Notes: generated by a model from the letters alone, not told the origin. A DNA stretch of 64,000 bases from Bacteroidales bacterium (GCA_016286385.1 JAEESO010000014.1:1-64000); one strand, 5' to 3'. Positions 614 to 63,322 are shown, numbered from the stretch's first letter. Numbers and translations are program-made.

Positions 614-2949
614 TGAAATCAAAAAACGATATCCTGATCAAGGTACTTTCCTTAGGTGTGGGATTGGCTGTGGGCATTGTGCTCATTGCCAAGGTGTTCT
701 TTGAGCTGAGTTACGACAGTTTCTACAAGGACATTGACCGGGTGTACACGATTAATACCTGGTACTCGCACCAAGGAGAGGAGAAAGATTATGGCCAGGT
801 GAGCGGCGCTGTTGCCGTGGGCTTTATGGATGAAGTGCCAGGCGTTGAGGCTGGCACCCGCACCACATATGTGTTCAACGGAAATACCTATCTGGATGAA
901 AATGGCAATAAATTGTCTGGTACCCTTGTCTGTGCCGACACCTGCTTCTTCCAGGTCTTTGACCGGCCGATTCTGGCCGGCGATCCCGTAAAGGTGCTGG
1001 GCAAATGGGGCTCGGTGTTGGTTAACCGGAGCTTCGCCGAAAAGATGGGCGGCGTTCAGGAGTGCATCGGCAAGCAGATATGCAATGCAGATATGGACGG
1101 GTTGAAGCTGACCATTGAAGGTGTTTTCGAGGATTTCCCCAAGAACGGCAGCCTGGACTACGATATCCTGCTGTCAATGGATACCTACGGCAAGAATAGC
1201 ACGGATAACTGGCTGGGCAATGACCGATATAAAGGCTATGTAAAACTGATGCCGGGTGTGGACCCGAACACCCTTACGGATGCCATCCGGAAGATGCAGG
1301 AAGCCCACCAGCCGCTGGAGCGGATTGAGGCACAGGGAACCAGCTTGCGATACTTCCTGAAACCGTTCAGCACCCTTCATACTTCCGACCCGGATGTGAA
1401 GTCCCAGGTGATTCTGCTGTCGATTGTGGCAGCGCTGCTGATTCTTATTTCCCTGCTGAACTACATCCTGATTGTTATCTCATCGATGGTGAAACGCTCC
1501 AAGGAAGTGGGTGTGCGCAAGTGCTATGGCGCGGAAGGAAAGCATATCTACGGAATGCTGGCCAAGGAAGCGCTGCTGCACATTGTGCTCTCACTGGTAC
1601 TGGCGGCCGTCATCATCTTTGCCGGCCGGAGCATCGTGGAGAACCTGCTGGGCGTACCTTTCCAGACGCTACTGGTTCCGCAGAGTATTACGGCCATCGT
1701 AGCTGTAATCTTGCTGGTGCTGGTCATCTCGATCGTCGTTCCGGCCGAACTGTACCAGCGAGTTCCGGTGTATGCGGCGCTGAAGAACTATACGGAGAAT
1801 TCCCGCAACTGGAAGCTGGGACTGTTGGGTGTGCAAGTGCTTATCAACGTGTTCCTGGTTGTGATGATGCTCATCATTGGCCGACAGTATCAGAAGGTAT
1901 CCAACGCCGATACGGGTTACGACTACAAGAATCTGTACTACTTTGATATGTTCGATGGAGACCGTCAGGCGCTGACCAGGGCACATCAGACACTCAAAAG
2001 CCTCCCGGAGGTCACCGGCGTTGCTGCCAGTTATAATCTTCCCTTCGAAGGCTCCAACGGCGACAATGTTTATCTGCCGAATGATGACCGGGAACTATTT
2101 AACATTGCCGACCAGTATGAATGCTCCCCGGATTTCTATGACCTGATGGGAATTCAATTCCTGGAGGGCCGTGCGCCCAGGGATTCTTCGGAGATTGCTG
2201 TGGATGAGAAGTTTGTGACCAAGATGGCCGAGTTTACGGACTGGAGCGACGGAGCTGTGGGCAAGCAGGTGTTTATTACCGGACACGACCATTCGAGCGA
2301 TACGGAAAGGCGTTATTTCACCATCTCCGGTGTGTATAAGAGCTACATTATTGGCAACCTGACCGGCGTGGACCCGCGCCCCAGCGCGCTGTTCTATGGG
2401 GAGGTTGGCAGTATGAGTTCCTGGATGCCGCATACCTTCTTCAAGGTAAGGCCGGAGGCACTGCCGAAGGTGCGCCAAGCGCTGGAGCAGGCCTTGGAGG
2501 GCCGGGAAATCAACATCCTGTCTTATGAGGAGCAGATGCGGGCGGCTTATGCCGACAGCAAGAAGATGCGGAATACAATGGCCATTGGCGCCGTTTTCTC
2601 ATTGCTGATTGCCTTGCTGGGCCTCATCGGCTTCATCCGGGATGAAAGCCTGCGCCGCTCAAAGGAGATGGCCGTCCGGAAGATCAATGGCGCCACTACC
2701 CGAGACATCCTGAGCGTCTTTGCATCGGATATCCTGAAACTGTCCGGAGTAATGGCCGTGATAGCCTGCATCGGTGCCTTCTTCGTGGCTCGCAAGTGGC
2801 TGGAGCAGTTTGCCGAAAAGGTGTCCCTGAATCCGCTCTATTTCATCGGTGGGGCGCTGCTGGTACTGTTTATTGTCCTTGGCGTGGTGGTACTGAACTG
2901 TCTGAAGATTGCCCGGGCGAATCCGGTTGAATCGTTGAAGAATGAATAA
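613..2949 (+). CDS. FtsX-like/MacB-type ABC transporter permease
   Basis: 778 aa, GTG start overlapping the upstream stop; periplasmic domain plus TM segments, RSKEVGVRKCYGA and RSKEMAVRKINGA motifs. Confidence 0.9.
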
Positions 2950-2955
2950 ACACGT

Positions 2956-5340
2956 ATGAAATCTTATCTGAAATTCCTATCCCGCAATAAATTATACACA
3001 GCCATCGAGGCCGTGGGGCTGGCGGTGAGCCTTGCGTTTGTGATCCTGATCGGGAGTTACGTGGTGCAGCAGTATGAAGTGGCGCACGAGTCGCCGGAGT
3101 GGGAGCGCACCTTTGTGCTGGGAAGCGACGAGTTCCTGGGCTTGACCTATTGGGACAAGGAGGAGCTGGAGATGAATATCCCGGAGGTCGAAGCAGCAAG
3201 CCGCGTAGCCTTGCTGTGGCAGCCGCTCATCCGTGAGGGCGATTATCTGCTACAGTGCTCTGGAATGGAGACCGATGCCGACTTCTTCAGGGTATTCCCG
3301 GAATACCATCTTGTAGAAGGCAGTGCGGAAGATTTTGTGGGCAAGGATGATGTCCTCATCAGTGAATCACTGGCCAGGAAACTATCCATAGATGGAGGAA
3401 GCCTTATTGGGCGTACTATTAATGTGGATGAATCGGACCGTACCATTAAAGGAATCTTTGCCGATTTTGACGGGACCTTCTTTATGCCCTACGACATTAT
3501 TACGCACATTTCGGGGACCTGGGCTGCAGCGCAGGAGCGGAACTTTGGCAGCATCGGCAACTACACGACCTGGTTCCGCGCACGCGACGATGCGGATCCA
3601 GCCGAGGTGAGGGGCAAAGTGAAAGCGCTGCTGCACAAGAACTACGACGCTATCTGGAGTGGGGAAAAGGTGGATTCCTGGAAAGCTTACCGAATGGATG
3701 AGGCTTTCTTTGCGACAGGGAACAGCAACGGCCTTACCCGTCAGGGTAACGCCCAGATGCTCAGGCTTCTGACTGTGGTTGTACTTCTCCTGCTTCTGTC
3801 AGCCATTTTCAACTATGTGAACCTGAGCCTGGCTTTGACGGGAAAGCGTTCCAAAGAAATGGCCACCCGGCGACTGCTGGGAGCCGATAAAACGGGCATC
3901 CTATGGAAATACATCGGAGAATCCGTGGCTTTCACCGCCGTCTGCTTTGCCGCGGCACTGCTACTGGCCGACCTTCTGGTCCCGATGATGAACAGCCTCG
4001 TTTCCACCAGCGATCCAGACGAGGTGATGCTGGGCATCGGCGATACCAGCGTGAGGCTATCCTTTATGATAACGCCCGGGTATATCCTGGCATACATCGC
4101 CGGTATCCTGCTTTTGGGCACCCTCTGTGGACTTCTTCCGGCTATCGTAGCCTCGCGTTACGAGCCCATTGACGTGATCAAAGGGACGCTTCGGCGCCGC
4201 AGCAAAATGGTACTGAGCAAGGTGTTCATCGTGGTGCAGAACGTCTTGTCGGTATTCCTGATTGCCTTGGCGCTGGTGATGGAAGTGCAGATGCGGCATA
4301 TGCTCACCCGGCCGATGCACTCCGCAACAGAGAATCTCTATTACATTGAGTACTCTGCCCGCGACTACGATATGATGAAACTCTTCAAGGACAAGGTGGA
4401 GCAGCTGCCCTTTGTGACAAAGGCGGGTGTGGGGCGCGGTATCCCAGGGCTCATCAATATGACGATGGGCATCAAGGTGGACGAGGAGCATCACGTAGAT
4501 ATGCCGGTCATTCTTTGTGACTCCACCTATTTCAAACTGCTGGGACTGGAGGTGGAAGAAGATTTCGGCCATCCGCTCACGCATTCGCTCTGGATGAGCC
4601 GCAGTGCATTCAACGCCGCCGCGGTGTCGGATACCTCCACCGTGTTCCCCCGGAGAATCAATATGAACGGTGCCCAGCCGGAGTTCATCGGTGGCGTAGT
4701 GACGGATTATCCAACCCGGCCGGCCTCGGAGAGCAACCAGAACCCTAATGGTGGAGTCATCGTTACCCGGGCAGAAGAACTCCGCTATTCCAATTGTATG
4801 TTGATTGGCACCACAGGAGAGGACGAGTCATACGACAAAGACATCCGGCAGGCATACAGGGAATATCGGCTGGAGACCTCCGGCGTGGAGGAACCCGCTT
4901 GGCGGTACGGCTTCGTGCGTGACATCAACACGAAAATGCTGGCCCCTGTGCGGAGGACCCTGCGGCTGGTGGAACTCTTTGCGGTTCTGGCAGTGTTAAT
5001 TTCACTCCTGGGGCTCCTGGCGATGAGCACGTATTTTGCCGATGAGAACACCAAACAGATTGCCGTGAGGAAGGTTTTTGGCTCTGATGTAACGCACGAG
5101 ACATGGAGGAACGTCCGTAGCTATATGGTTTTGACCGGCATTGCCTGCGCCATCGGTATCCCGCTGGCCGTCTGGGCCGCCAGGGTTTATCTGGAGCGGT
5201 TTGCGTATCGCGTTGAGAACTACGGATGGGTGTTTGTGGTGGCGGTCATCATTTCACTGGCCATCGCCTTCGGTACCGTGCTATGGCAAACGCTGAAGGC
5301 CGCGAAGACCAACCCGGCGGTTGAACTGAAAAAAGAATAA
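2956..5340 (+). CDS. FtsX-like/MacB-type ABC transporter permease
   Basis: 794 aa; RSKEMATRRLLGA and TKQIAVRKVFGS motifs, same architecture as the preceding gene. Confidence 0.9.
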   Translation: MKSYLKFLSRNKLYTAIEAVGLAVSLAFVILIGSYVVQQYEVAHESPEWERTFVLGSDEFLGLTYWDKEELEMNIPEVEAASRVALLWQPLIREGDYLLQCSGMETDADFFRVFPEYHLVEGSAEDFVGKDDVLISESLARKLSIDGGSLIGRTINVDESDRTIKGIFADFDGTFFMPYDIITHISGTWAAAQERNFGSIGNYTTWFRARDDADPAEVRGKVKALLHKNYDAIWSGEKVDSWKAYRMDEAFFATGNSNGLTRQGNAQMLRLLTVVVLLLLLSAIFNYVNLSLALTGKRSKEMATRRLLGADKTGILWKYIGESVAFTAVCFAAALLLADLLVPMMNSLVSTSDPDEVMLGIGDTSVRLSFMITPGYILAYIAGILLLGTLCGLLPAIVASRYEPIDVIKGTLRRRSKMVLSKVFIVVQNVLSVFLIALALVMEVQMRHMLTRPMHSATENLYYIEYSARDYDMMKLFKDKVEQLPFVTKAGVGRGIPGLINMTMGIKVDEEHHVDMPVILCDSTYFKLLGLEVEEDFGHPLTHSLWMSRSAFNAAAVSDTSTVFPRRINMNGAQPEFIGGVVTDYPTRPASESNQNPNGGVIVTRAEELRYSNCMLIGTTGEDESYDKDIRQAYREYRLETSGVEEPAWRYGFVRDINTKMLAPVRRTLRLVELFAVLAVLISLLGLLAMSTYFADENTKQIAVRKVFGSDVTHETWRNVRSYMVLTGIACAIGIPLAVWAARVYLERFAYRVENYGWVFVVAVIISLAIAFGTVLWQTLKAAKTNPAVELKKE

Positions 5341-5670
5341 TTATTGGATGGAAGCAAATTGGTCCAAATACCTGTTGGCGGCGGCGAGTTCGGGAAGATT
5401 TCTCTCCTGGAAGGCGGCGCAGTACAGTTCCCGGAAACGGCAGAGTTCTTCCCACATGGCACTGCGGGCCGATTTGCTCTCCTGGAGTCTTCCATACCGG
5501 ATGGTAAGGTCCATCAACTCCTGGAAACGGGCAAATGCACTCTGGGCACGGCTTTCTTTCCCGGCCTCGAGCGCCTTTAGGACACGGGAAGTCTCGCTGC
5601 CGATGTTGGCCATCTGCTGCGGAAAACTCAGTTCGGCCCAACGGCCATTTTCCAGCGACCTGTGTTGCAT
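5341..5670 (-). CDS. small conserved hypothetical protein paired with a DUF5674 gene
   Basis: 109 aa (RSLENGRWAELSFPQQMANIGSE...); start codon abuts the stop of the upstream DUF5674 ORF. Confidence 0.65.
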   Translation of the reverse strand: MQHRSLENGRWAELSFPQQMANIGSETSRVLKALEAGKESRAQSAFARFQELMDLTIRYGRLQESKSARSAMWEELCRFRELYCAAFQERNLPELAAANRYLDQFASIQ

Positions 5671-6012
5671 CTATGCAGTAATGAATTTATCGACAATAGC
5701 TTTGATGGCCCCTCGGATTTCAGGATCCTCCACATCCCTGGAAGGATTTCCCTGCCAGGAGCGGATATTGATGAGCGAATCAAATTCGATGAAATCTTCC
5801 CCTTCTTCCTCCACCCAGAGGTTGAAGCCCCAGAGGCACTCCTGTGCAGAGCCGTCTTCTAACAGAAGGCGTTCCAAGTCTGCGTGGAGATCGGCATCAA
5901 CAGCCAAGAGACCTCGTTTTACATCGGCCACACATTTTATCATGTCACCGAAGGTATTTTGTGCCAGCGTACGGAGCGTTTCTCTGGATATGGGTTGCTG
6001 AAGAATCTGCAT
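5671..6012 (-). CDS. DUF5674 family protein
   Basis: 113 aa; DADLHADLERLLLEDGSAQECLWGFNLW...DFIEFDSLINIRSWQGNPSRDVEDPEIR resembles the DUF5674 pattern from memory. Confidence 0.75.
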   Translation of the reverse strand: MQILQQPISRETLRTLAQNTFGDMIKCVADVKRGLLAVDADLHADLERLLLEDGSAQECLWGFNLWVEEEGEDFIEFDSLINIRSWQGNPSRDVEDPEIRGAIKAIVDKFITA

Positions 6013-6052
6013 GATTTCAATTTTGACAAAGATACAAATAATAAATTAAGAC

Positions 6053-6090
6053 AAAAAGCGATATTCTGATCAAGGACCTTTCTCAGGAGC
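6053..6090 (+). pseudogene. possible relic of the 5' end of an FtsX-permease gene
   Basis: 6053-6075 matches 622-644 (start of the permease ORF) at 21/23 positions, with further similarity downstream; no intact ORF follows. Confidence 0.4.
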
Positions 6091-6223
6091 ATCGGGTATG
6101 TCGACATAACCTAGATGAAAAAGTTGCTAAAATTACTTAACTTTATGCGGTTTTTGCGTCTATATCTGTGAAGTATGGATAAAACGCTTATAATAGAACT
6201 CACCGTAAAAACGAGGACAAAAG

Positions 6224-6634: not shown

Positions 6635-6659
6635 ATCCTTCGGCTTCGCCTCAGGATGA
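6634..6659. repeat. short intergenic palindrome of the type GATCCTTCGGCTTCGCCTCAGGATGACA, possible bidirectional terminator
   Basis: Hairpin ATCCT...AGGAT between the convergent lipoprotein and YhcG genes. Confidence 0.5.
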
Positions 6660-7736
6660 CATCAGGCACTTCTCGATTTCTTCAGGAGACGGTAGGGCGT
6701 TTTTCAAATCGTCAGGAAGTTGCTCACGGGTAACCTCGTATTCGGAGATTCCCATCGGCCTATTGATCGCTGACAAAGCATATCTAGCCAAAACGGTATT
6801 CTTCTCCTTGCAGATCAGCAGGCCGATAGCCGGTTTTTCTACTTCGGTGTTGAGGAGGTCATCCACCATGGCGACATATCCTGCCAATTGTCCCAGATCC
6901 GGGAAATCGAACTCCGTAACCTTGACCTCAATCACGCAATATCGATGCAGCGGGATAATGTAAAAGAGCAAGTCGATGAACTTCTCCTTTCCTCCGCCAA
7001 CAAGGCGATACTCCTTGCCGACATAAGAGAAGCCCTTGCCCAGTTCAACCAGGAACTGGGTGATGTGTTCAATCAGGGCATCTTTCAACTCGGCCTCCTG
7101 GTACCTTTCCTTTCCCGGCAGAAATGTGAAATCGAACGGACTTTTCAGAAGCTCCTGGGCAAGGTCGCTTTCCGGTGCAGGTATGGTGATCGCGAAGTTA
7201 GTCTGGGCTGCGCCCTGGCGCTCGTAGAGGTCTGTTGAGAGGAAGTTCAGAAGTACTGCTCTTCCCCAATTATTATCCAGCGACTTCCTGGCAAAGAAAA
7301 GACCTTTCTTTGCATCACCTTTCACTTTGTCGATGATGCACATGTGGTGAGTCCAAGGTATATTGAAGATCAAGTCCAAAACGTCAGCATCTTGCTGACG
7401 AATTGGTGTCGCAGAATCGTCAATAACCCCTTGACGATTTTCAAGTAACTGACAATAAAGGCGATAGAAGTAGTGAGTATAATTTATGGTTGTTGGAGAC
7501 ATACCACGATTCAGGGCCAAGGCCTTCTTCAGGTCCTTACTCACATTCTCATAGAAATGGCTGCCGTAGCGGTTCTCATACTGCCGCTTCTCAATGTCTT
7601 CACCTACTGACCAGTAGAAGCGAAGCATCTCATCATTGACCTTTATCGCAGCCTTAATCTGGCTGGAGCGATACCGTTGTGCTAGCTCTGCAATCCACTG
7701 GGCGTATTCTTTGTCCAATTTCATCAACTGTTCCAT
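6651..7736 (-). CDS. DUF1016 / YhcG family PDDEXK nuclease
   Basis: LDKEYAQWIAELAQRYRSSQIKAAIKVNDEMLRFYWSVGEDI...; C-terminal PDDEXK region GGGKEKFIDLLFYIIPLHRYCVIEVK; longer ORF start at 7760 is possible. Confidence 0.9.
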   Translation of the reverse strand: MEQLMKLDKEYAQWIAELAQRYRSSQIKAAIKVNDEMLRFYWSVGEDIEKRQYENRYGSHFYENVSKDLKKALALNRGMSPTTINYTHYFYRLYCQLLENRQGVIDDSATPIRQQDADVLDLIFNIPWTHHMCIIDKVKGDAKKGLFFARKSLDNNWGRAVLLNFLSTDLYERQGAAQTNFAITIPAPESDLAQELLKSPFDFTFLPGKERYQEAELKDALIEHITQFLVELGKGFSYVGKEYRLVGGGKEKFIDLLFYIIPLHRYCVIEVKVTEFDFPDLGQLAGYVAMVDDLLNTEVEKPAIGLLICKEKNTVLARYALSAINRPMGISEYEVTREQLPDDLKNALPSPEEIEKCLMSS

Positions 7737-7815
7737 AGCGAACGTAATTAAGATTAACAAACGTAGTGATAGGTTAATAAGTTTAATCGCTGTAAAGATA
7801 AGGAATGTGCATAAC

Positions 7816-7929
7816 GGCGGTGGAGGCTAAGTACCTCATTTGTAATTACTTACAAGGGTTTCTACCAGAAAAAATTCTGGGAGAAACCGTTGTAAACGCC
7901 AGAGTGTCAGCAGCTTAGCTTCCACCGCC
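7816..7929. repeat. nested inverted repeat (large stem-loop element)
   Basis: Outer arms 7816-7831 / 7914-7929 pair 15/16; inner arms 7850-7870 / 7875-7895 pair 19/21 around an AAAA loop. Confidence 0.75.
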
Positions 7930-8021: not shown

Positions 8022-8026
8022 GGAAT

Positions 8027-10120
8027 ATGAAACGTTCACTGATTCTATTCCTGATGGCAGCAATTGCATTTGACGCCTGCGCGCCCAAGCCTGTGGTAAC
8101 GCGCAAAGACAACACTGTAGATACTTATTTCGGCACTGAGGTTCCGGACCCTTACCGCTGGCTGGAGGATGATTCCTCCGAAGAAACCGCCGCGTGGGTG
8201 AAGGCCCAGAACAAGGTGACGGACTATTACCTCAAGCGCCTCCCGGGCCGTGAGAAACTCCTGAAGCGCCTCAAGGAAGTGGCCAACTATGAGAAGGTTG
8301 GCATTCCCTTCCATGAGAAAAACGGCAAGTGGTACATCTATAAGAACAACGGCCTCCAGAACCAGAGCGTCCTCTATGAGATGGAATCTCCGGAGGATGT
8401 CCCGGTGGTTTTCCTGGACCCCAACACCCTTTCCGAAGACGGCACTGTTGCCCTGAAGGGCTGCTATTTTTCAAATGATGGCCGATATATGGCCTACACC
8501 ATCTCCCGCAGCGGCTCCGACTGGGAGGAAATCTACGTTATGGACGCCCGTACAAAGGAATTCCTTCCGGACCACATAGAGTGGGCCAAATTCACTGAGG
8601 CGGCCTGGTGCGGAGACGGCTTCTACTACAGCGCCTACGACCGCCCCGGCGAGGACCACGCCTACAGCGGCAAGAACGAGGGCCACAAGATTTACTACCA
8701 TAAGATCGGCACCCCTCAGTCGGAGGACGTCCTGTTCTTTGAGAATCCGGCCGAGCCCCTCCGCTTCTACCAGTTCACGGTCAACGAGGCAGAGACCATG
8801 GGCTTCCTTTATGAGGACGGGGCCGATATCGGCAATAATCTCTATGTCAAGGATTTAAGGAAGGCCGATTCCCCGTTTGTCCAGATTACGAAGGATATGA
8901 AGAACGCCTGCTACCCCGTGGAGACTGACGGCGAACTTATCTACCTCTTTACCAACGTGGACGCCCCCATGAACAAGCTGGTTGTCACAACTATCGGCAA
9001 TCCAAAAGTGTGGAAGGACCTTATCCCGGAGTGGGACTGCGTGCTTAACGGCGTGTCCTTCATAACCGACGGCTTCATCATTGCAAATTACTCCAAGGAC
9101 GCCTCCACGCACGCCTACCTCTATGACCGCCATGACGGCCGCCGCGTAGAGGAACTTCACCTTCCGGGAGTTGGCAGCGCTTCCTTCAGCGCAAAGCTTG
9201 GAGAGCCCTGGTGCTACTATTCCTATTCCAGCTTCACTACCCCCGGAACCATCTATTTCTGGAACATAGAAACCGGCGACAGCATTGTGTACAAGCAGCC
9301 TCAGACCGCTTTTGACCTCTCCGGCTTTGAGACGGTACAGGTGTTCTTCCCCTCAAAGGACGGCACCCGCATCCCCATGTTCCTTACCTATAAGAAAGGT
9401 ATCAGACTGGACGGATCAAACCCCGTTTACCTCTACGGCTACGGCGGCTTTGACATCTCCCTTTCCCCGTCATTCAGTGCAATGAGGGTGCCTTATCTTG
9501 AGGCCGGCGGCATCTACGCGCAGGTGAACCTTCGCGGCGGCGGAGAATACGGTGAGGCCTGGCACCTTGCCGGTACCAAGATGAACAAGCAGAACGTGTT
9601 TGACGACTTCATCGGGGCAGCCGAATGGCTCATCGCAAATGGCTACACCAGCTCTGAGAAACTTGCCATCGTGGGCGGCTCCAACGGCGGCCTTCTGGTT
9701 GGCGCCTGTATGACGCAAAGACCTGATCTTTACGCAGTTGCAATTCCCCAGGTGGGCGTTATGGATATGCTCCGCTACCACAAGTTCACTATCGGCTGGA
9801 ACTGGGCCCCGGATTACGGCACTTCAGAGGACTCTGAGGAAATGTTCCGCTATCTCCTTGGATATTCTCCGCTCCACAACCTGAAGCCCGGAACGGCATA
9901 TCCGGCCACACTTGTCACCACCGCCGATCACGACGACAGGGTGGTCCCCGCCCATTCCTTCAAGTTTGCCGCAACCCTCCAGGAGTGCAACTCCGGAGAT
10001 AAGCCGCAGCTCATAAGGATAGACTCCAAGGCCGGTCACGGCGGCGGCAAACCCCTTGCCAAAGTGCTTGAGGAACAGGCCGATATCTACTCCTTCATAA
10101 TGCACAACACCGGCATGTAG
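8027..10120 (+). CDS. prolyl oligopeptidase family S9A serine peptidase
   Basis: 697 aa; GGSNGGLLVGACMTQRPDLYAVAIPQVGVMDMLRYHKFTIG, DHDDRVVPAHSFKF, AGHGGG. Confidence 0.93.
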   Translation: MKRSLILFLMAAIAFDACAPKPVVTRKDNTVDTYFGTEVPDPYRWLEDDSSEETAAWVKAQNKVTDYYLKRLPGREKLLKRLKEVANYEKVGIPFHEKNGKWYIYKNNGLQNQSVLYEMESPEDVPVVFLDPNTLSEDGTVALKGCYFSNDGRYMAYTISRSGSDWEEIYVMDARTKEFLPDHIEWAKFTEAAWCGDGFYYSAYDRPGEDHAYSGKNEGHKIYYHKIGTPQSEDVLFFENPAEPLRFYQFTVNEAETMGFLYEDGADIGNNLYVKDLRKADSPFVQITKDMKNACYPVETDGELIYLFTNVDAPMNKLVVTTIGNPKVWKDLIPEWDCVLNGVSFITDGFIIANYSKDASTHAYLYDRHDGRRVEELHLPGVGSASFSAKLGEPWCYYSYSSFTTPGTIYFWNIETGDSIVYKQPQTAFDLSGFETVQVFFPSKDGTRIPMFLTYKKGIRLDGSNPVYLYGYGGFDISLSPSFSAMRVPYLEAGGIYAQVNLRGGGEYGEAWHLAGTKMNKQNVFDDFIGAAEWLIANGYTSSEKLAIVGGSNGGLLVGACMTQRPDLYAVAIPQVGVMDMLRYHKFTIGWNWAPDYGTSEDSEEMFRYLLGYSPLHNLKPGTAYPATLVTTADHDDRVVPAHSFKFAATLQECNSGDKPQLIRIDSKAGHGGGKPLAKVLEEQADIYSFIMHNTGM

Positions 10121-35649: not shown

Positions 35650-35666
35650 CATAAGCATCATATAGA

Positions 35667-52488: not shown

Positions 52489-52722
52489 ATGGATAACAAA
52501 GATAAGATGGCTACATCGGCCAAAGGACTGAAACTGATGATTGCGGGCCTCATTGTGATGGCTTCCGGCTTCCTCCTCCTTTCCGGAGGCGGTTCAGATG
52601 ACCCTCAGGTGTTCAACTACGCAATGTTCGACTTCCGCCGCCTTGTTGCCGCACCGCTTGTGATTGTGGCGGGTATTGTGCTGGAAGTAATAGCTATAAT
52701 GGGAAAATTTGACAGGAAATAA
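52489..52722 (+). CDS. DUF3098 family membrane protein
   Basis: 77 aa between ftsX and uppP; GLKLMIAGLIVMASGFLLLSGGGSDDPQVFNYAMFDFRRLVAAPLVIVAG. Confidence 0.85.
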   Translation: MDNKDKMATSAKGLKLMIAGLIVMASGFLLLSGGGSDDPQVFNYAMFDFRRLVAAPLVIVAGIVLEVIAIMGKFDRK

Positions 52723-52723
52723 T

Positions 52724-53542: not shown

Positions 53543-54270
53543 TGAGAAACCTCACGTATTTTGTGTCCGACGTCCATCTGGGCCTCCGCCTTCCGGAAGC
53601 ACCGGAGCGGGAGAGGCGTTTTGTGGAGTTCCTGAGGGGTATTCCCGTGGATAAGACGGAGGCGCTCTACATGCTTGGCGACATCTGGGATTTCTGGTAT
53701 GAGTACAAGGATGTGGTGCCAAAGGGCTATGCCCAGGTGTTTGCGGCTCTGCTTGACCTTATGGATGCCGGTGTGAAGGTGTATTTCATTGAGGGAAATC
53801 ACGACCAATGGAGTTATGGCTATTTCTCAGAGCTTGGGATGACCTGCCCCAAGACTCAGCCTTATTATACGGAGATTGGCGGAAAGCGCTTCTGCCTTGG
53901 CCACGGAGACATGCTGGGAAACGTTCCCCCCAAGTACAGGCGCATCCAGTGGATGTTCCATAACAAGCTCTTCAGGGCGCTTTTCTCCTCGCTGCATCCC
54001 CGTATCGGCATAGGTTGGGGAAAAACCTGGAGCCGCCAGTCCCGCACTCACAAGCCCGTTCCTAAGTACGTCTTCAAAGGGGAGAGCGAGCCTCTTTTCC
54101 AGTGGTGCAGTGCCTGCCCGGAAAAAGTGGATTACTTTATCTTCGGCCACTATCACACCTGCTGGGACGTCCCGGTAGGGGATGCCCGCCTGATGGTTAT
54201 GGCCGATTGGAAGGAGCCCAACTGGATAGTCTTCGATTCCGCCACAGGAGAACTCTGCGCCCGGCCGTAA
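53542..54270 (+). CDS. UDP-2,3-diacylglucosamine diphosphatase (LpxH-like)
   Basis: FVSDVHLGL, LGDIWDFWYEY, EGNHDQWSYGY, GHGDMLG, GHYHTCWD calcineurin-like motifs; 1-nt overlap with uppP. Confidence 0.9.
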   Translation: MRNLTYFVSDVHLGLRLPEAPERERRFVEFLRGIPVDKTEALYMLGDIWDFWYEYKDVVPKGYAQVFAALLDLMDAGVKVYFIEGNHDQWSYGYFSELGMTCPKTQPYYTEIGGKRFCLGHGDMLGNVPPKYRRIQWMFHNKLFRALFSSLHPRIGIGWGKTWSRQSRTHKPVPKYVFKGESEPLFQWCSACPEKVDYFIFGHYHTCWDVPVGDARLMVMADWKEPNWIVFDSATGELCARP

Positions 54271-54309: not shown

Positions 54310-55065
54310 ATGAAAAAAATGGCAAGGAATATTGCGCTTATCGGCCTTCTTCTCTCGCTGTCTCTTACGGCGGGAGCGCAGGGGCATATCCAGAAGGCCA
54401 TGCAGCGGGCCCAGGCCCAGCGTGAGGCGATGAGCCGTGCGCAGGCCATCCGTGAGCAAAGTGACGCCCCCCAGCAGGGCGAATATCTCCGTATGGTGGT
54501 TGAGAACGGGGACACTACTTATTATGATAAACTCCGCCCCATCTGGATAGTGAGCCGCCGCAAAGGAACGTCGGAAAAGCAGTGGCGTGACTACTATAAA
54601 CTTGTGTACAGGTTCGCGCGTGTGTACCCGTACGCAGAGGCCGCCGGCCCCATTGTTGCCAGCGCCGACAGCGTGATCAAGGCAAACCATATGAACTCCG
54701 TCCAGAAGGACCGCTACATAAAGGATATCCAGAAACAGCTGTTCAAGAGCTATGAGGGCATCTTCCGCCAGATGACCATCTATGACGGCGCCCTCATGAT
54801 GAAACTCATAGACCGTGAAACAGGGATGTCTTCCTATGATATCATAAAGGAGTACAAGAACGGCGTTGCTGCAGGCTTCTGGCAGGGAATTGCCAAACTC
54901 TTCGAGAACGACCTAAAGAGCACCTATGACCCCACAGGGGCCGATTCCGACACAGAACTCCTTGTCCAGGCCTGGAAAGCCGGCGAATTCCCGGCCCTGT
55001 ATTGGTCCGTCTTCTGGGAGGATCCTCCCGTGGCCGATATAGGCGAAATAAAACTCAGCAAATAG
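54310..55065 (+). CDS. DUF4294 family protein
   Basis: YLRMVVENGDTTYYDKLRPIWIVSRRKGTSEKQWRDYYKLVYRFARVYPYAEAA...IKLIDRETGMSSYDIIKEYKNG-like. Confidence 0.85.
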   Translation: MKKMARNIALIGLLLSLSLTAGAQGHIQKAMQRAQAQREAMSRAQAIREQSDAPQQGEYLRMVVENGDTTYYDKLRPIWIVSRRKGTSEKQWRDYYKLVYRFARVYPYAEAAGPIVASADSVIKANHMNSVQKDRYIKDIQKQLFKSYEGIFRQMTIYDGALMMKLIDRETGMSSYDIIKEYKNGVAAGFWQGIAKLFENDLKSTYDPTGADSDTELLVQAWKAGEFPALYWSVFWEDPPVADIGEIKLSK

Positions 55066-55178
55066 CATTGTCGAAAATCGGCGGGAAATTTTTTCAACAA
55101 AGTGCGTAACTATCTGATTTAACGCAACTTTACCTTTAAAATCCTCGGTAGAAAAATCTGAAAAAATCATCAAAAAGA

Positions 55179-55209
55179 TTTGGTGATTCAGATTTTTTTT
55201 GTAACTTTG
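55179..55209 (+). promoter_or_regulatory. Bacteroidetes promoter TTTG-N19-TAACTTTG of the rplP operon
   Basis: TTTG 55179-55182, exact 19-bp spacer, TAACTTTG 55202-55209. Confidence 0.8.
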
Positions 55210-55297
55210 CAATCCCGAAATTGGAGCAAAAAGCACCCAACCAGCTGAGTTTCAATGAGTTAGGGATTAAAAAGGAAATTTTAAAACATTACAGAAA

Positions 55298-55720
55298 ATG
55301 TTACAGCCTAAAAGAACAAAATTCAGAAGGGAACAGAAAAACCGCATGAAGGGCAATTCCGGTCGTGGAAACCAGCTCGCATTCGGCTCTTTCGGCCTTA
55401 AGAACCTTGAGAATTGCTGGCTCACTGCTCAGCAGATTGAGGCAGCCCGTCAGGCCATTTCCCGTAGGATGAACCGTGAAGGTCAGATCTGGATCCGTGT
55501 CTTCCCTGTGAAGCCGTTCACTGCAAAGCCGCTCGATACCCGTATGGGTAAGGGTAAGGGTGACCCCCAGGGCTTCGTTGCTCCTATCACCCCCGGTCGT
55601 ATCCTCTTCGAGGCAGAGGGCGTATCCCTCGCCGTTGCAAAAGAGGCAATGCGTCTTGCAGCCAACAAACTTCCCGTTGCTACCAAATTCGTGGTCCGCA
55701 GGGATTATGTAGAAGAATAA
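55298..55720 (+). CDS. rplP: 50S ribosomal protein L16
   Basis: [43 protein letters not shown]. Confidence 0.97.
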
Positions 55721-55738
55721 TTAACGGAGATTAGGAAA

Positions 55739-55933
55739 ATGAAAGTATCTGAAGTACGTGAAATGTCAGTCGCAGATCTTCGCGACCGCATTGAGGTGGA
55801 AAAGAGCAATCTTGACACCATGAAACTCAATCACGCGATCTCTCCGCTGGAGGACACCTCCAAGATTCGCAAGACCCGTCAGGATATCGCTCGCATGATC
55901 ACCATCCTGGCAGAAAAAGAAAAGCAGAACTAA
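55739..55933 (+). CDS. rpmC: 50S ribosomal protein L29
   Basis: MKVSEVREMSVADLRDRIEVEKSNLDTMKLNHAISPLEDTSKIRKTRQDIARM. Confidence 0.95.
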   Translation: MKVSEVREMSVADLRDRIEVEKSNLDTMKLNHAISPLEDTSKIRKTRQDIARMITILAEKEKQN

Positions 55934-55949
55934 TTAATAAGGCAGACTT

Positions 55950-56204
55950 ATGGAAAGAAATCTTCGTAAGGAAAGGGTCGGCATCGTGGTGTCCAACAAG
56001 ATGGACAAGACCATCGTGGTTGCAGTAGAAACCCATGAGAAGCACCCCATTTACGGCAAGTTCGTAAAGAAGACCACCAAGTTTGTTGCAGAGGACGCTA
56101 ACAACGAATGCTCCGAGGGCGATACAGTCCGCATCATGGAGACCCGTCCCCTGAGCAAGACCAAGAAGTGGAGATTAGTTGAAATCGTAGAAAAAGTCAA
56201 GTAA
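55950..56204 (+). CDS. rpsQ: 30S ribosomal protein S17
   Basis: [40 protein letters not shown]. Confidence 0.97.
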
Positions 56205-56206
56205 TT

Positions 56207-56572
56207 ATGATACAGCAGGAATCACGTTTAACGGTTGCCGACAACAGCGGTGCTAAGGAAGTCCTCTGCATCCGCGTCCTCGGCGGTACCCGCCACCGTT
56301 ACGCAACTATCGGCGAAACCATCGTCGTGACCGTGAAGAGCGCCATCCCCGGTGGTGACATCAAGAAAGGCACTGTCACCAAGGCCGTGGTCGTTCGCAC
56401 CAAGAAGGAAATCCGTCGCGCGGACGGTTCTTACATCCGCTTCGACGAGAACGCATGCGTCCTCCTCAACGGCGCAGGCGAACTCCGTGGAACCCGTATT
56501 TTCGGCCCTGTGGCCCGCGAGCTCCGCGAGAACTACATGAAGATTGTTTCACTGGCACCGGAGGTCCTTTAA
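56207..56572 (+). CDS. rplN: 50S ribosomal protein L14
   Basis: [36 protein letters not shown]. Confidence 0.97.
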
Positions 56573-56585
56573 TTTGATTAAGAGT

Positions 56586-56900
56586 ATGAAAAAGTTCAAC
56601 ATCAAGAAAGGCGATACCGTGTATGTAAATGCCGGTAACGATAAGGGCAAGACCGGAAAGGTCCTGGAAGTAATCCGTGAGAAAGACCGCGTCATCGTAG
56701 AGGGCGTGAACATGGTGTCAAAGCACACCAAACCCAACCCCAAGAACCCTCAGGGCGGTATTGTTAAACAGGAAGCAGGCATTCACATTTCCAACGTGAA
56801 CCTTATGGACGCAAGTGGCAAGCCCACCCGCGTAGCCCACAAGGAAGTTGATGGAAAGAAAGTCCGCATTGCTAAAACCACAGGAGCGGAGATTAAGTAA
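56586..56900 (+). CDS. rplX: 50S ribosomal protein L24
   Basis: [54 protein letters not shown]. Confidence 0.96.
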
Positions 56901-56902
56901 TT

Positions 56903-57502
56903 ATGGCAAAGAAAGCAGCAAAACCCGCAGAAGTGCAGGCACTTCCTAAGGGATATACCCCGGACCTCAAGAAGGTCTACAAAGAGGAGATCGTTCCCGC
57001 TCTTGTAAAGCAGTTCTCCTATACCACCGTTATGCAGGTCCCCAAGCTCGTGAAGATCACCCTCAATGAAGGTGTCGGCGACGCTACCCAGGACAAGAAA
57101 ATGGTTGAGGAAGCCGCTGAAGAGCTCTCCATCATCGCCGGTCAGAAGGCCGTTATCACCAACTCCCGCAAGGATATCTCCAACTTCAAGCTCCGTAAGG
57201 GCATGCCCATCGGCGCAAAGGTTACCCTGCGTGACGTCAGGATGTATGAGTTCCTGGAGCGCCTCATCCGTGTAGCTCTCCCCCGTATCCGTGACTTCAA
57301 CGGTATCTCCGAGAAAATGGACGGTCAGGGCAACTACACCCTTGGTATCAAGGAGCAGATCATCTTCCCTGAGATCGAGATCGACAAGAACCCCCGCATC
57401 CACGGTGTGGAGATTACATTTGTGACCACCGCAAAGACCGACGAAGAGGCTCACGCCCTTCTCAAGGCTTTCGGTCTTCCTTTCAAGAAACACAATAACT
57501 AA
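56903..57502 (+). CDS. rplE: 50S ribosomal protein L5
   Basis: [52 protein letters not shown]. Confidence 0.97.
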
Positions 57503-57511
57503 GATAACAGC

Positions 57512-57781
57512 ATGGCAAAGGAATCAATGAAAGCTCGCGAAGTAAAACGCGCGAAATTAGTTGCAAAGTACGCCGCTAAGAGGGCTGCCCTGAAAGAGGC
57601 CGGTGATTACGCCGCCCTTGACAAGCTCCCCAAGAATGCAAGCCCCGTACGTCTCCACAACCGCTGCTCTCTCACCGGTCGTCCCAAGGGTTACATGCGT
57701 GACTTCGGCCTCAGCCGTATCCAGTTCCGCGAAATGGCCTCCCAGGGTCTCATCCCCGGCGTAAAGAAGGCAAGTTGGTAG
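57512..57781 (+). CDS. rpsN: 30S ribosomal protein S14
   Basis: [48 protein letters not shown]. Confidence 0.97.
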
Positions 57782-57856
57782 TATTACCTATTATTATTTT
57801 TATAAACAATCGGATATCGGGCGCGAAACCGCGCCGGTCCACAAAAAGACAAAAAA

Positions 57857-58252
57857 ATGACTGATCCTATTGCAGATTTTCTGACCAGAATCCGTAACGC
57901 TTACATGGCTGGCAAGAAGGTGGTTGAAATCCCCGCTTCCAACATTAAGCTCGCTATCACCAAGATTCTGTTCGAGAAAGGTTACATCCTCAGCTATAAG
58001 CTTGTTGAGGGTGAGCCCGTGAACACTATCAAAATCGCTCTGAAGTATCACCCTCAGACCAAGGCTGCCGCCATCAAGAGCATTGTGCGCGTTAGCACCC
58101 CCGGTCTTAGGAAGTATGCCGATGTCCAGAACATGCCGCGCGTTCTCAACGGCCTGGGTATCGCTATCCTCTCCACTTCAAAGGGCGTCATCACCGACAA
58201 AGAGGCCAAGGAGCTGAACGTAGGCGGTGAGGTTATTTGCTATGTATACTAA
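57857..58252 (+). CDS. rpsH: 30S ribosomal protein S8
   Basis: MTDPIADFLTRIRNAYMAGKKVVEIPAS. Confidence 0.97.
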   Translation: MTDPIADFLTRIRNAYMAGKKVVEIPASNIKLAITKILFEKGYILSYKLVEGEPVNTIKIALKYHPQTKAAAIKSIVRVSTPGLRKYADVQNMPRVLNGLGIAILSTSKGVITDKEAKELNVGGEVICYVY

Positions 58253-58270
58253 TAAGCGAATCCAAACATT

Positions 58271-58831
58271 ATGTCAAGAATCGGAAAATTACCTGTAGTC
58301 CTTCCCGCCGGCACCAAGGCTGAACTCCTTGACGGCAACGTAGTGAAGGTGAAAGGCCCTCTTGGTGAGATGTCCCAGAAAGTGGATGCAGACATCAAGG
58401 TCACCATCGAGGGAAATGAAATCAAGTTCGAGCGTCCCAGCGACCTCCCCCGCTTCCGCTCCATGCACGGTCTGTACCGCGCTCTCGTTCACAACATGGT
58501 TGTGGGCGTCAGCGAAGGCTTCACCATCAAGCAGGAGTTTGTGGGTGTAGGTTACCGCGTGGTAGCTCAGGGCCAGCTCCTGACCATGTCTCTGGGTTAT
58601 TCCCACGACATCCAGATCATGCTTCCTGCAGAGGTTACTGCAGAGACTCCTCAGGTTCGTAAGGGTGAGAACCCCGTTCTTATCCTCAAGAGCCGCGACA
58701 AGCAGCTGGTTGGCCAGGTAGCCGCCAAGATCCGTTCATTCCGCCGTCCTGAGCCTTATAAGGGCAAGGGTATCAAGTTCGCCGGTGAGCAGCTCCGCCG
58801 CAAGGCCGGTAAGACCGCTTCGGCCAAATAA
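58271..58831 (+). CDS. rplF: 50S ribosomal protein L6
   Basis: MSRIGKLPVVLPAGTKAELLDGNVVKVKGPLGEMS; RRPEPYKGKGIKFAGEQLRRKAGK. Confidence 0.97.
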   Translation: MSRIGKLPVVLPAGTKAELLDGNVVKVKGPLGEMSQKVDADIKVTIEGNEIKFERPSDLPRFRSMHGLYRALVHNMVVGVSEGFTIKQEFVGVGYRVVAQGQLLTMSLGYSHDIQIMLPAEVTAETPQVRKGENPVLILKSRDKQLVGQVAAKIRSFRRPEPYKGKGIKFAGEQLRRKAGKTASAK

Positions 58832-58850
58832 TCATTAGGAGGAAAGAATT

Positions 58851-59213
58851 ATGGCACTGAATAGAATTGAAAGAAGAAGAAGGATTCACTACAGAATCCG
58901 TAAGCACGTAAACGGCACCGCAGAGCGTCCCCGCATGGTTGTGTTCCGCTCCAACAAGCAGATCTACGTCCAGGTGGTGAACGATCTCGAGGGCAAGACC
59001 CTTGTGGCAGCCGCCTCCAATGATAAGGTACTCGCCGCCCAGACAAAGGGCAAGAGCGGTATTGAAGCTGCAGCAATCGTAGGTAAGGCTATCGCAGAGC
59101 GCGCTCTCGCAGCCGGTATCACCGCCGTTTGCTTCGACCGCGGAGGTTACCTCTTCCACGGCAGGGTAAAATCACTCGCAGACGCTGCCCGCGAAGGCGG
59201 CCTCGCATTCTAA
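58851..59213 (+). CDS. rplR: 50S ribosomal protein L18
   Basis: [64 protein letters not shown]. Confidence 0.97.
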
Positions 59214-59228
59214 TAACAAGAGACAACT

Positions 59229-59747
59229 ATGGCAAATTCAAACGTAAAAAGAGTTAAGACCTCTGACCTTGAGCTCAAGGACAGACTGGTAGCCATCAAC
59301 CGCGTTACCAAGGTCACCAAGGGTGGTCGTCACTTCCGTTTTGCCGCTATCGTCGTCGTCGGCGATGAAAACGGTGTCGTAGGTTACGGTCTCGGTAAGG
59401 CAAACGAGGTTACCGCCGCTATCGCAAAGGGCGTTGAGGATGCAAAGAAGAACCTTGTGAAGGTTCCCGTCATCAACACCACTATCCCCCACGAGCAGGT
59501 TTCACGCTTCGGCGGCGCCGAAGTATTCATGAAGCCCGCAGCTCCCGGTACCGGTGTAAAGGCAGGTGGTGCCATGCGCGCCGTCTTTGAGAGCGCCGGC
59601 ATCCAGAACGTGCTTGCAAAGAGCAAGGGTTCATCCAACCCTCACAACCTGGTTAAGGCTACCATCGCAGCTCTCACCGAGATGCGTGATGCTTACACCG
59701 TGGCTGGTCTTCGCGGCATTCCCATGTCTAAAGTTTTTAACGGTTAA
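59229..59747 (+). CDS. rpsE: 30S ribosomal protein S5
   Basis: [42 protein letters not shown]. Confidence 0.97.
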
Positions 59748-59760
59748 TCTGAGAGAGACT

Positions 59761-59943
59761 ATGGCAAAGCTTAAGATTACTCAGGTCCGCTCCAAGAATG
59801 GAGAGACCAAGCGTCAGATCGCAAACCTCAAGACTCTCGGTATCCGCAAGATGCACCAGACCGTCATCGTAGAGGATACTCCTATCACCAGGGGTATGCT
59901 TGAGAAGGTCCAGCATCTGGTTTCTTATGAAGTAATTGACTAA
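59761..59943 (+). CDS. rpmD: 50S ribosomal protein L30
   Basis: MAKLKITQVRSKNGETKRQIANLKTLGIRKMHQTVIVEDTP. Confidence 0.95.
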   Translation: MAKLKITQVRSKNGETKRQIANLKTLGIRKMHQTVIVEDTPITRGMLEKVQHLVSYEVID

Positions 59944-59957
59944 GAGGAGGATTAGAG

Positions 59958-60407
59958 ATGAAACTTGAAAATCTGAAGCCCGCAAAGGGCGCAACCCATA
60001 ACAGCAAGCGCGTAGGCCGCGGTCAGGGTTCCGGTAAGGGTGGCACTGCTACCCGTGGTACCAAGGGTGCCCAGGCACGTGCCGGATATGAGCACAAGGT
60101 TGGTTTCGAAGGTGGTCAGATGCCTATCCAGAGGCGTCTTCCCAAGTTCGGCTTCAAGAACCCCACCCGTGTTGCTTTCAAGGGCGTTAACGTTGCTACC
60201 ATCCAGGCCCTCAGCGAAAAACTCGGCCTTAAGGAATTCGACGTTGAGACCTTCATCGCAGCAGGCATCGCCTCCAAGGGTGAGCTCGTAAAGGTGCTTG
60301 GTAATGGTGAAATCACCGCAAAGGTAGAGGTTAAGGCAAACGCCTTCTCAAAGAGCGCAATCGCAAAGATTGAGGCTGCCGGCGGTAAAGCAACCGTAAT
60401 CGAATAA
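59958..60407 (+). CDS. rplO: 50S ribosomal protein L15
   Basis: LENLKPAKGATHNSKRVGRGQGSGKGGTATRGTKGAQARAG. Confidence 0.97.
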   Translation: MKLENLKPAKGATHNSKRVGRGQGSGKGGTATRGTKGAQARAGYEHKVGFEGGQMPIQRRLPKFGFKNPTRVAFKGVNVATIQALSEKLGLKEFDVETFIAAGIASKGELVKVLGNGEITAKVEVKANAFSKSAIAKIEAAGGKATVIE

Positions 60408-60419
60408 TTCTCAGTCACA

Positions 60420-61739
60420 ATGAAGAAGTTTATTGAGACAATTCGAAACATCTACAACATCGAAGAACTGCGCAAGCGGATAGGTTACACTATCCTGCTT
60501 GTGCTGGTTTACCGTCTGGGTAGCTTCATCCTCCTCCCGGGCCTCGATCCTGAGGTTCTGAAGGGCGGTATCGCTGGTACCCAGGAAGGCCTCGTCGGGC
60601 TTCTTAACATGTTCTCCGGCGGTGCTTTCGGTAATGCCAGTATCTTCGCTCTGGGTGTGATGCCGTACATCTCGGCATCCATCGTGGTTCAGCTCCTCGG
60701 TATGTTCGTCCCTTCCTTCCGCAAGATGCAGATGGAGGGTGAGAGCGGCCGCCGAAAGATGAACCAGATCACCCGCTACCTCACCGTAGCAATCCTCGCC
60801 ATCCAGGGCCCCGCCTATGTTGCAGGTATGATTCCCGCAGCAGCACGCACAGTTACCTGGACGCCCTTCGTGTTCAACCTGGTTTCCACCATCATCCTGA
60901 TGGCCGGTTCCATGTTCGTGATGTGGCTTGGTGAGCGTATTACAGACCGCGGTATCGGTAACGGTATCTCCCTCATCATCATGATCGGTATCGTAGCCCG
61001 CCTTCCTTACGCCCTCTTCGCAGAAGGTGCACAGAAGTTCACCGGTAACGGTGTGGGCGGTCCCCTGATGTTCGTTGTGGAAATGGTAGTTTGGGTGCTT
61101 GTCATCCTTGCAGCCATCGCACTCGTCCAGGCAGTCCGCAGGGTTCCGGTACAGTATGCAAAGCGCGTGATCGGCAACAAGCAGTACGGCGGTGTGCGTC
61201 AGTACATCCCCCTCAAGATCAATGCTGCTGGTGTTATGCCTATCATCTTTGCCCAGGCCCTGATGATGTTCCCTATGCTGCTGGGCCGCTATGATGCCAC
61301 TCGTGGTATCGCCGCTGCCTTCTCCAGCTACACTTCCGTCTGGTACAATATCGTATTCGGCCTTCTGGTAATCATCTTCACCTACTTCTACACCGCCGTC
61401 ACCGTGAACCCCACAATGATGGCAGAGGATATGAAGAAGAACGGTGGATTCATCCCCGGCGTAAAGCCCGGCAAGAAGACCGCCGAATACCTTGACAGCA
61501 TTATGACCAAGGTGACCCTCCCGGGCTCCATCTTCCTGGCCATCATCGCCTGTCTGCCGGCCCTGGCAAATGTAATGGGTGTGAACAACCAGTTCGCTTC
61601 CTTCTTCGGCGGCACCTCGCTGCTGATCATGGTGGGCGTAATCCTGGACACCCTCCAGCAGATTGAAAGCTATCTGCTCATGCGCCACTACGACGGACTT
61701 ATGAAAACCGGCCGCCTTACCGGCAGGTCCGGAATGTAA
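60420..61739 (+). CDS. secY: preprotein translocase subunit SecY
   Basis: LRKRIGYTILLVLVYRLGSFILLPGLDP, GVMPYISASIVVQLL, QIESYLLMRHYDGLMKTGRLTGR. Confidence 0.97.
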   Translation: MKKFIETIRNIYNIEELRKRIGYTILLVLVYRLGSFILLPGLDPEVLKGGIAGTQEGLVGLLNMFSGGAFGNASIFALGVMPYISASIVVQLLGMFVPSFRKMQMEGESGRRKMNQITRYLTVAILAIQGPAYVAGMIPAAARTVTWTPFVFNLVSTIILMAGSMFVMWLGERITDRGIGNGISLIIMIGIVARLPYALFAEGAQKFTGNGVGGPLMFVVEMVVWVLVILAAIALVQAVRRVPVQYAKRVIGNKQYGGVRQYIPLKINAAGVMPIIFAQALMMFPMLLGRYDATRGIAAAFSSYTSVWYNIVFGLLVIIFTYFYTAVTVNPTMMAEDMKKNGGFIPGVKPGKKTAEYLDSIMTKVTLPGSIFLAIIACLPALANVMGVNNQFASFFGGTSLLIMVGVILDTLQQIESYLLMRHYDGLMKTGRLTGRSGM

Positions 61740-61742
61740 TTA

Positions 61743-62546
61743 ATGAATGTACTATCGATTTTCGATATGGTAAGGCCTAAAACCAGTGAAGAAATCGAGC
61801 TTCTGAGGATCAACGGAGACCTTGTGTCCCGTACCTTGGCGGAGGTCGGAAAACTAGTCGCCCCAGGTGTGACAACCGAGAGGTTGAATGAGGTGGCCGA
61901 GACCTTTATCCGCGATCACGGAGCAGAACCTTCCTTCAAGGGTTTCGAAGGCTTCCCGGCAGCGCTCTGCATGTCAGTGAATGATGTCGTAGTCCACGGT
62001 TTCCCGTCCGATTACGTCCTCAAAGAGGGAGACATCCTTTCAGTAGACTGCGGAACCCTGTACAAAGGGTACAACGGAGATTCGGCCTACACCTTCCCGG
62101 TCGGGGAGGTGGACGCCGAGACCCGGAAACTCCTGGATGTCACCAAGGCATCCCTGTACAAGGGTATTGAAGCGGCTGTGGCAGGAGGTCGCACGGGCGA
62201 TATCGGATACGCGGTGCAGTCGTACGCAGAATCATTCGGTTTTTCCGTTGTCCGCGAACTTGAAGGACACGGCCTTGGCAGGGAGATGCACGAGGAACCC
62301 GGTGTTCCCAATTACGGGAGAAGGGGTCACGGCGCCCGCCTCATTGACGGAATGGTTATTTGTATTGAGCCTATGATCTGTGCAGGCGGCAGAGGTGTGT
62401 ATCTTGCAAAAAATGGTTGGGCAGTACACACCGCCGATCACAGGAACGCGGCGCACTACGAGCTTACGGTTGTTATCCGGAAAGGCCGGGCTGAGCAGCT
62501 GTCGACATTCGATTACATTGAGAAAGATGGTTTGATTAAATTTTAA
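61743..62546 (+). CDS. map: type I methionyl aminopeptidase
   Basis: [47 protein letters not shown]; alternative start at 61767. Confidence 0.95.
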
Positions 62547-62563
62547 GGAAAAACGTTCCGCCT

Positions 62564-62782
62564 ATGTCCAAACAAGTAGCTATCGAGCAGGATGGTACTG
62601 TGATTGAGACCCTTCCCAACGCAATGTTTCGCGTGGAATTGGAGAATGGTCACGTCCTCCTCTGCAACATTTCAGGTAAGATGAGGATGAACTTTATCCA
62701 TATCCTTCTCGGTGACCGGGTAAAGGTAGAGATCTCACCTTACGATTTAACCAAAGGAAGAATTTCTTTCAGATACAAATAA
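62564..62782 (+). CDS. infA: translation initiation factor IF-1
   Basis: [56 protein letters not shown]. Confidence 0.97.
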
Positions 62783-62795
62783 AAACTAGATAACG

Positions 62796-62912
62796 ATGAA
62801 AGTCAAGACCTCCATCAAGAAACGCAGTGAAGACTGCAAGATTGTCCGGCGTAAAGGCCGCCTGTACGTTATCTGCAAGAAGAACCCCAAGTTCAAGATG
62901 CGCCAGGGTTAA
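62796..62912 (+). CDS. rpmJ: 50S ribosomal protein L36
   Basis: 38 aa [38 protein letters not shown]; translated by hand, too short for the ORF track. Confidence 0.95.
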
Positions 62913-62944
62913 TTAAGTGTAACTAATAAAAGTACAGATAGAAT

Positions 62945-63322
62945 ATGGCAAGAATAGCCGGTGTTGATTTACCCAACAACAAACACGGAGTTATAGGTCT
63001 CACCTATATCTACGGAATCGGCCGCAGCAGCGCCCAGAAGATTCTGAGCACTTGTGGCATCGACCCTACTATCAAAGTCGGAGACTGGAACGACGATCAG
63101 ATCGCCGCTATCCGTGCCCTCATCAACGAAGAGTTCAAGATCGAGGGTGAGCTCCGTTCCTCAGTCCAGATGGACATCAAGCGCCTTATGGATATCGGTT
63201 GCTATCGTGGTATCCGCCACCGCGCAGGTCTCCCTGTGCGCGGCCAGAGCACCAAGAACAACGCCCGTACCCGTAAAGGTAAGAAGAAGACCGTTGCCAA
63301 CAAGAAGAAAGCAACCAAGTAA
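62945..63322 (+). CDS. rpsM: 30S ribosomal protein S13
   Basis: [61 protein letters not shown]. Confidence 0.97.

Follow-up and report, generated by a model that had tools for sequence, protein, structure and literature searches.

The locus examined here is a stretch of 64,000 nucleotides from a Bacteroidales bacterium (GCA_016286385.1, JAEESO010000014.1:1-64000), hereafter the window, and the element in question is a short word, GGCCGAT, that recurs along it. The core of the word is seven letters, non-palindromic. By exact count the window holds 49 copies on the + strand and 49 on the - strand (read as ATCGGCC), where an earlier note on this DNA had counted about 48 and about 49; all example coordinates listed in that note were correct. 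Copies on the + strand lie at 965-971, 4310-4316, 5467-5473, 6821-6827, 8480-8486, 8821-8827, 8863-8869, 10078-10084, 12876-12882, 13212-13218, 13323-13329, 13843-13849, 14132-14138, 19371-19377, 19577-19583, 21144-21150, 21558-21564, 23137-23143, 23296-23302, 24217-24223, 25070-25076, 25618-25624, 27884-27890, 29691-29697, 30172-30178, 32169-32175, 32308-32314, 32947-32953, 33220-33226, 34419-34425, 35269-35275, 36936-36942, 38592-38598, 39335-39341, 39659-39665, 40356-40362, 44783-44789, 46290-46296, 46725-46731, 46827-46833, 48141-48147, 49855-49861, 50886-50892, 50897-50903, 51249-51255, 51979-51985, 54201-54207, 54939-54945 and 55032-55038. Copies on the - strand lie at 5923-5929, 6754-6760, 10705-10711, 11968-11974, 12744-12750, 13242-13248, 13521-13527, 13572-13578, 14435-14441, 16075-16081, 17972-17978, 19389-19395, 19412-19418, 19791-19797, 20727-20733, 20959-20965, 21618-21624, 24394-24400, 25513-25519, 25717-25723, 26912-26918, 27617-27623, 29419-29425, 29511-29517, 30313-30319, 30938-30944, 31128-31134, 33361-33367, 33682-33688, 33958-33964, 35823-35829, 37258-37264, 38155-38161, 39060-39066, 39798-39804, 39939-39945, 46574-46580, 47115-47121, 47542-47548, 47814-47820, 48072-48078, 48528-48534, 49348-49354, 51823-51829, 52515-52521, 53072-53078, 53419-53425, 54340-54346 and 63017-63023. 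GGCCGAC and GGCCGAG, which the note had called scarce, occur 5 and 12 times in the window, and the only neighbours to stand out there are TGCCGAT (37) and GGCCGAA (24).

Copies were then counted in the source genome (assembly of 2.64 Mb, 97% complete, 78 contigs), which carries 3,900 (1,984 + 1,916) vs 298 of a reversed-word control, a density of ~1.5 per kb (~1,500 per Mb). Detailed analysis covered ~830 kb of the 2.64 Mb, about a third of the genome, and simple in-house gene calls were used for codon and genic counts. For the codon null, synonymous codons were shuffled inside each gene, preserving the protein and codon usage. Relative to these shuffles, 879 copies were observed and 125 expected in 634 kb (7.0x), and 1,073 observed and 154 expected in 830 kb (z = 74), where GGCCGAT ranked first of all 7-mers and the runners-up mostly overlapped it. 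All six frame-and-strand registers were enriched under the same null (2x to 34x), and intergenic DNA held 69 copies where 7.5-9.9 were expected (~7-9x), the reversed word occurring there 3 times. Dipeptides able to carry the word showed no excess in the source genome, and hence it is the silent positions that spell it; GGCCGAT accounts for 24% of all TCG codons, vs 1.3% in relatives in which the word is not amplified. The over-representation of GGCCGAT is, near certainly, a real genome-wide signal, and its abundance is not due to codon bias. The earlier note had proposed such a signal, to be abandoned if genome-wide counts came close to a codon-shuffled expectation or if all GGCCGAN words were equally enriched; the sevenfold excess over the null, its presence in six frames and in intergenic DNA, and the spread among GGCCGAA (1.6x), GGCCGAC (0.6x), GGCCGAG (0.7x) and GGCCGAT (7.0x) strongly support the proposal.

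Among one-letter neighbours, TGCCGAT was mildly enriched vs the codon null (2.6x), as was GGCCGAA; those changed internally were mostly depleted, and most were less frequent, by as much as 7-fold, than in relatives without the amplification. In the flanks, again relative to the codon null, C was avoided at +7 and G at +9, while A/T was favoured at -3 and T, more weakly, at -5, -6 and -9, together a weak footprint ~20 bases wide. Orientation was balanced relative to genes (436 sense / 443 antisense) and nearly so on contigs (598 / 548). Spacing of copies was near random and slightly over-dispersed; copies <400 bp apart were in opposite orientation 312 times and in the same orientation 228 times (p 3e-4), and gene starts and ends were both depleted. 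The palindrome ATCGGCCGAT was considered as the real site and rejected, its 24 copies being no more than the flanks predict. GATC avoidance was likewise considered as the reason for the absent C at +7; set beside other palindromes, GATC shows no special avoidance, and GGCCGATC, itself enriched 2.5x, also counters the idea.

Conservation was assessed against a near relative, G368, over 82 kb of alignment at 92% identity. Sites were common to both genomes in 126 of 153 cases (82%), vs 46% for composition-matched words (p ~1e-19). Fourfold-degenerate bases inside the word were identical in G368 at 117 of 119 positions (98%) vs 84% elsewhere (p 4e-7), and in G431 at 87 of 90 vs 76% elsewhere (p 1e-7). 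Codon by codon the effect persisted in the main codons (GCC, 46/46 vs 86%; TCG, 24/24 vs 83%). GGCCGAT sites are thus maintained against substitution at silent positions. Where sites differed, 11 of 27 carried at least 2 letter changes, vs 24% in control words (p 0.04; small sample); an early and smaller sample had suggested that differing sites nearly always change several letters, an excess that shrank to this value with the 27 sites. The DNA uptake sequences (DUS) of Neisseria are far more conserved than their surroundings and absent from recently acquired genes, and some gains of DUS, too divergent for point mutation, have been read as arrival by recombination (PMC2397512).

Observed/expected ratios (O/E) were ~4-11 in most of the 8-20 kb segments analyzed, GC-poor ones included. 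Candidate acquired DNA was lower, with O/E of 2.2 in a defence island and 1.5 in contig L232, vs ~7 elsewhere, few segments having been examined. The island, segment L236 (source contig C32:1-20000), encodes a type IIG/ISP restriction enzyme, an HNH nuclease and AbiEii, and the word is almost missing from it. L232 (source contig C28) has its 9 copies all on the same strand, with a genic enrichment of just 1.5x; the contig may be acquired DNA or contamination. In the window, the first 8 kb, around a YhcG/DUF1016 nuclease gene (6651-7760, - strand; PADLOC candidate PDC-S02), showed low enrichment (2.3x) and failed to align with the parts of G368 and G431 compared. A word-free stretch of 8 kb (55039-63016), which contains secY, is read as a set of highly expressed genes, the ribosomal-protein operon. 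Site density was 0.96 per kb in genes whose codons are most ribosomal-like vs 1.3-1.9 in others, as expected if codon selection overrides drive. A Fimbrillin-like (Mfa) protein is encoded at 34027-35661 (- strand), adjoining other surface-protein genes. Other words were strongly avoided in 630-830 kb of the source genome, TCGA with 730 observed and 2,478 expected, as were CTAG and CTCGA(G)-type words (CCTCGAG, 11 observed and 176 expected), which may be a trace of restriction systems.

To place the word among relatives, counts were compared across a genus whose genomes are all drafts, mostly metagenome-assembled, from an uncultured group. From SecY (~75% identity), the genus is probably Candidatus Cryptobacteroides, the nearest named records being uncultured rumen Bacteroidales. 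About 55 of 400 sampled species of the genus exceeded 680 copies per Mb, reaching up to 1,900, and most others held ~100-400, about the codon expectation. Outside the genus no genome exceeded ~650 per Mb (150 from the family, 297 from the phylum), and none of the 297 other Bacteroidota reached half the density of the source genome. O/E in 20 kb was 3.0-7.2 in amplified genomes and 0.75-2.5 in others. A tree of concatenated ComEC, acetate kinase and AddB placed all 11 amplified genomes included in one clade (100/99, all bootstraps), and the AddB tree grouped 17 amplified genomes as one; the closest unamplified sisters were G311, G362 and G376. With the amplified genomes tested in a single clade, the trait would most simply have begun once. 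The word is not general to Bacteroidales, being bound to one clade within one large genus. Repeated or patchy loss, which the guaA protein tree had suggested by mixing low-count genomes among high ones, was dropped, since the amplified genomes stay together in the trees of AddB, of ComEC, of acetate kinase and of the three concatenated, and guaA is taken as the exception. The guaA tree (window 20311-21912) conflicts with the other three on the species nearest the window's clade, perhaps through gene exchange. Alternate words, or dialects, were not seen in unamplified relatives in 20 kb each.

A gene that might read the word was sought by searching six gene families across 42 genomes. C5 (PF00145), N4/N6 (PF01555) and MmeI-type (PF20473) methylases did not track the word across these genomes, nor did ComEC or T2SSF, and the source genome has neither C5 nor N4/N6 methylases. 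AddA/AddB-type nucleases were present in all 42. Where an AddB locus was present, addA follows addB immediately in 13 of 13 unamplified genomes and does not adjoin it in 17 of 17 amplified ones, two of which had <800 bases of room. In the source genome and G368, addA lies ~20 kb from addB, beyond comEC (source contig C66; L227:3769-6741, L227:12372-13457 and L329:1-2295, comEC being the middle locus). The AddAB operon was thus broken up on the branch that also gained the amplification, a striking coincidence; it is one evolutionary event and hence one data point.

The word is dense, orientation-balanced, conserved, silent, lineage-bound and weak in candidate acquired DNA, which is the pattern of biased incorporation in Neisseria and Haemophilus, and an exchange-driven self-DNA word is therefore favoured. 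GGCCGAT is a strong candidate for a mark of the cell's own DNA, like those of naturally transforming bacteria. That it is a self-DNA recognition word kept by biased DNA exchange, either uptake-like or Chi-like after entry, is a proposition on which our judgment is evenly balanced. Fragments of kin DNA carrying GGCCGAT would be preferentially taken in or, alternatively, preferentially spared and recombined after entry, and alleles with the word would replace alleles without it, a molecular drive through DNA exchange. The candidate reader would be a protein that recognizes the sequence during uptake or during end processing by AddAB; we infer both the drive and the place of the reader. Like the DUS of Neisseriaceae and the uptake signal sequences (USS) of Pasteurellaceae, GGCCGAT is short, asymmetric, dense, over-represented on both strands and balanced in orientation, and it is more conserved than its surroundings, lineage-specific and accompanied by a near-match gradient; it may also be thin in acquired DNA (few segments examined). 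It differs from them in lacking an intergenic excess in raw density and in its host, a member of the Bacteroidota.

Several observations weigh against such a self-DNA word. DUS and USS systems are characterized by a type IV pilus-type uptake machine with a minor pilin that binds the word. T2SSF, a core gene of the type IV pilus/T2S machine, was found above cut-off in no amplified genome (one sub-threshold match), although the same search detected the family in 13 of 14 control genomes. ComEC is present in the source genome and is short (361 aa, Competence domain alone) and equally present in unamplified relatives; it lies at L227:12372-13457, and similarly short open frames occur in most relatives. 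Across the six families and 42 genomes, the relocated addA was the one clade-distinguishing feature found, and it reflects one event. Copies are spaced no more evenly than at random, which gives no pointer to one word per fragment. Natural transformation would be a candidate trait of these organisms. With the pilus missing, we do not class GGCCGAT among DUS or USS as these are defined. Riemerella anatipestifer, also of the Bacteroidota, transforms with ComEC, DprA, ComF and RecA and with four further proteins that have no homologue in known machinery (PMC8459023), so that the lack of a pilus does not exclude uptake in this phylum. Of the earlier note's interpretation, the likeness to uptake sequences and to the highly iterated palindrome HIP1 of cyanobacteria is strongly supported, the word being dense, balanced, conserved and thin in candidate acquired DNA; the functions it offered (uptake, a binding protein, methylation) stand as candidates. 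Of the genes it had proposed to look for, comEC was found and those of a type IV pilus-type machine (T2SSF) were not; the methylases typical of HIP1 were sought in three families, none of which tracks the word.

A Chi-like role, treated separately here, would be an exchange drive acting after entry, and is the form best tied to a gene; we consider it unlikely. The AddAB helicase-nuclease of the clade would stop degrading and load RecA at GGCCGAT, so that word-bearing DNA survives and recombines and the word accumulates. AddA/AddB-type nucleases in 42 of 42 genomes and the addA-addB operon broken on the amplification branch (17/17 vs 0/13) are consistent with this, and like the Chi sites of RecBCD and AddAB the word is short and asymmetric, its seven letters fitting the Chi size range. 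Chi is usually orientation-biased, whereas GGCCGAT is not (436 sense / 443 antisense, with replication direction unmapped). Chi of E. coli occurs at 0.2 per kb with an O/E of ~2.3 (PMC3784561), against 1.5 per kb and 7 for GGCCGAT, which is several times denser and more over-represented. Unamplified relatives have AddAB, but 20 kb of each revealed no dominant word of another kind, and the operon break counts once. Abundance might instead be a by-product of repair, as for HIP1, if the word carries the mark of a methylase and near-matches are converted into it, ratchet-like, by strand-directed mismatch repair; this seems quite unlikely. The asymmetric form, with A before the last base, does resemble the sites of single-strand methylating enzymes. 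The density also falls within the HIP range, copies are mostly intragenic as for HIP1 and the alternate HIPs of cyanobacteria, and near-matches differ mostly at the word ends (TGCCGAT 2.6x, GGCCGAA 1.6x, internal changes depleted), as those of HIP1 do (PMC4390886). HIPs, however, are palindromes tied to methylases, whereas GGCCGAT is asymmetric, ATCGGCCGAT is not enriched and none of the three methylase families searched (C5, N4/N6, MmeI-type) tracks the word; the source genome is without the first two, and its type ISP/IIG enzyme sits in the defence island. The density of 1.9 per kb in G369 is, further, above the roughly 1 per kb at which the HIP repair model saturates (PMC4390886).

Direct selection, site by site, for binding of an abundant nucleoid, replication or segregation protein is distinctly improbable in our view. 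Conservation at individual sites, flank preferences that fit a protein footprint of ~20 bases, and the excess of opposite orientation among neighbours <400 bp apart (312 vs 228, p 3e-4) would agree with it. KOPS, parS and matS are strand- or region-biased sites, and GGCCGAT shows no bias of that kind; it has no relation to gene ends, both being depleted, its spacing is not even, and binding leaves unexplained the weakness in candidate acquired DNA with equal enrichment elsewhere. Most sites are genic and carried in silent positions, which would suit a codon or dipeptide bias, and assembly error or contamination might be invoked as well; with the 7x excess over the codon null, enrichment in six frames, 7-9x in intergenic DNA, no dipeptide excess and the same word high in ~55 separate genomes, bias or artefact is barely credible.

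Within the self-DNA reading, a more specific version is held tentatively: recognition would be pilus-independent, in uncultured Bacteroidales, GGCCGAT would be the first uptake- or exchange-type word in Bacteroidota, and its reader would be an outer-membrane or periplasmic DNA receptor or the AddAB with the broken operon. The earlier note knew of no described equivalent in Bacteroidales, and in the open-access literature none for Bacteroidota turned up, nor was GGCCGAT itself found in any open-access paper, subscription papers lying outside this scope. To our knowledge, just two Gram-negative families have self-recognition words whose function is proven. If the reading is true, GGCCGAT would be a third and independent case, pilus-free, traceable to one origin and carried by a gut lineage that is abundant and uncultured. 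The origin of the word, its drive and a role in sex or defence could then be tested in comparisons between the clade and its unamplified sisters, and the word would be usable to bin or trace DNA of the clade. DNA exchange would then shape a sizeable part of the rumen microbiome.

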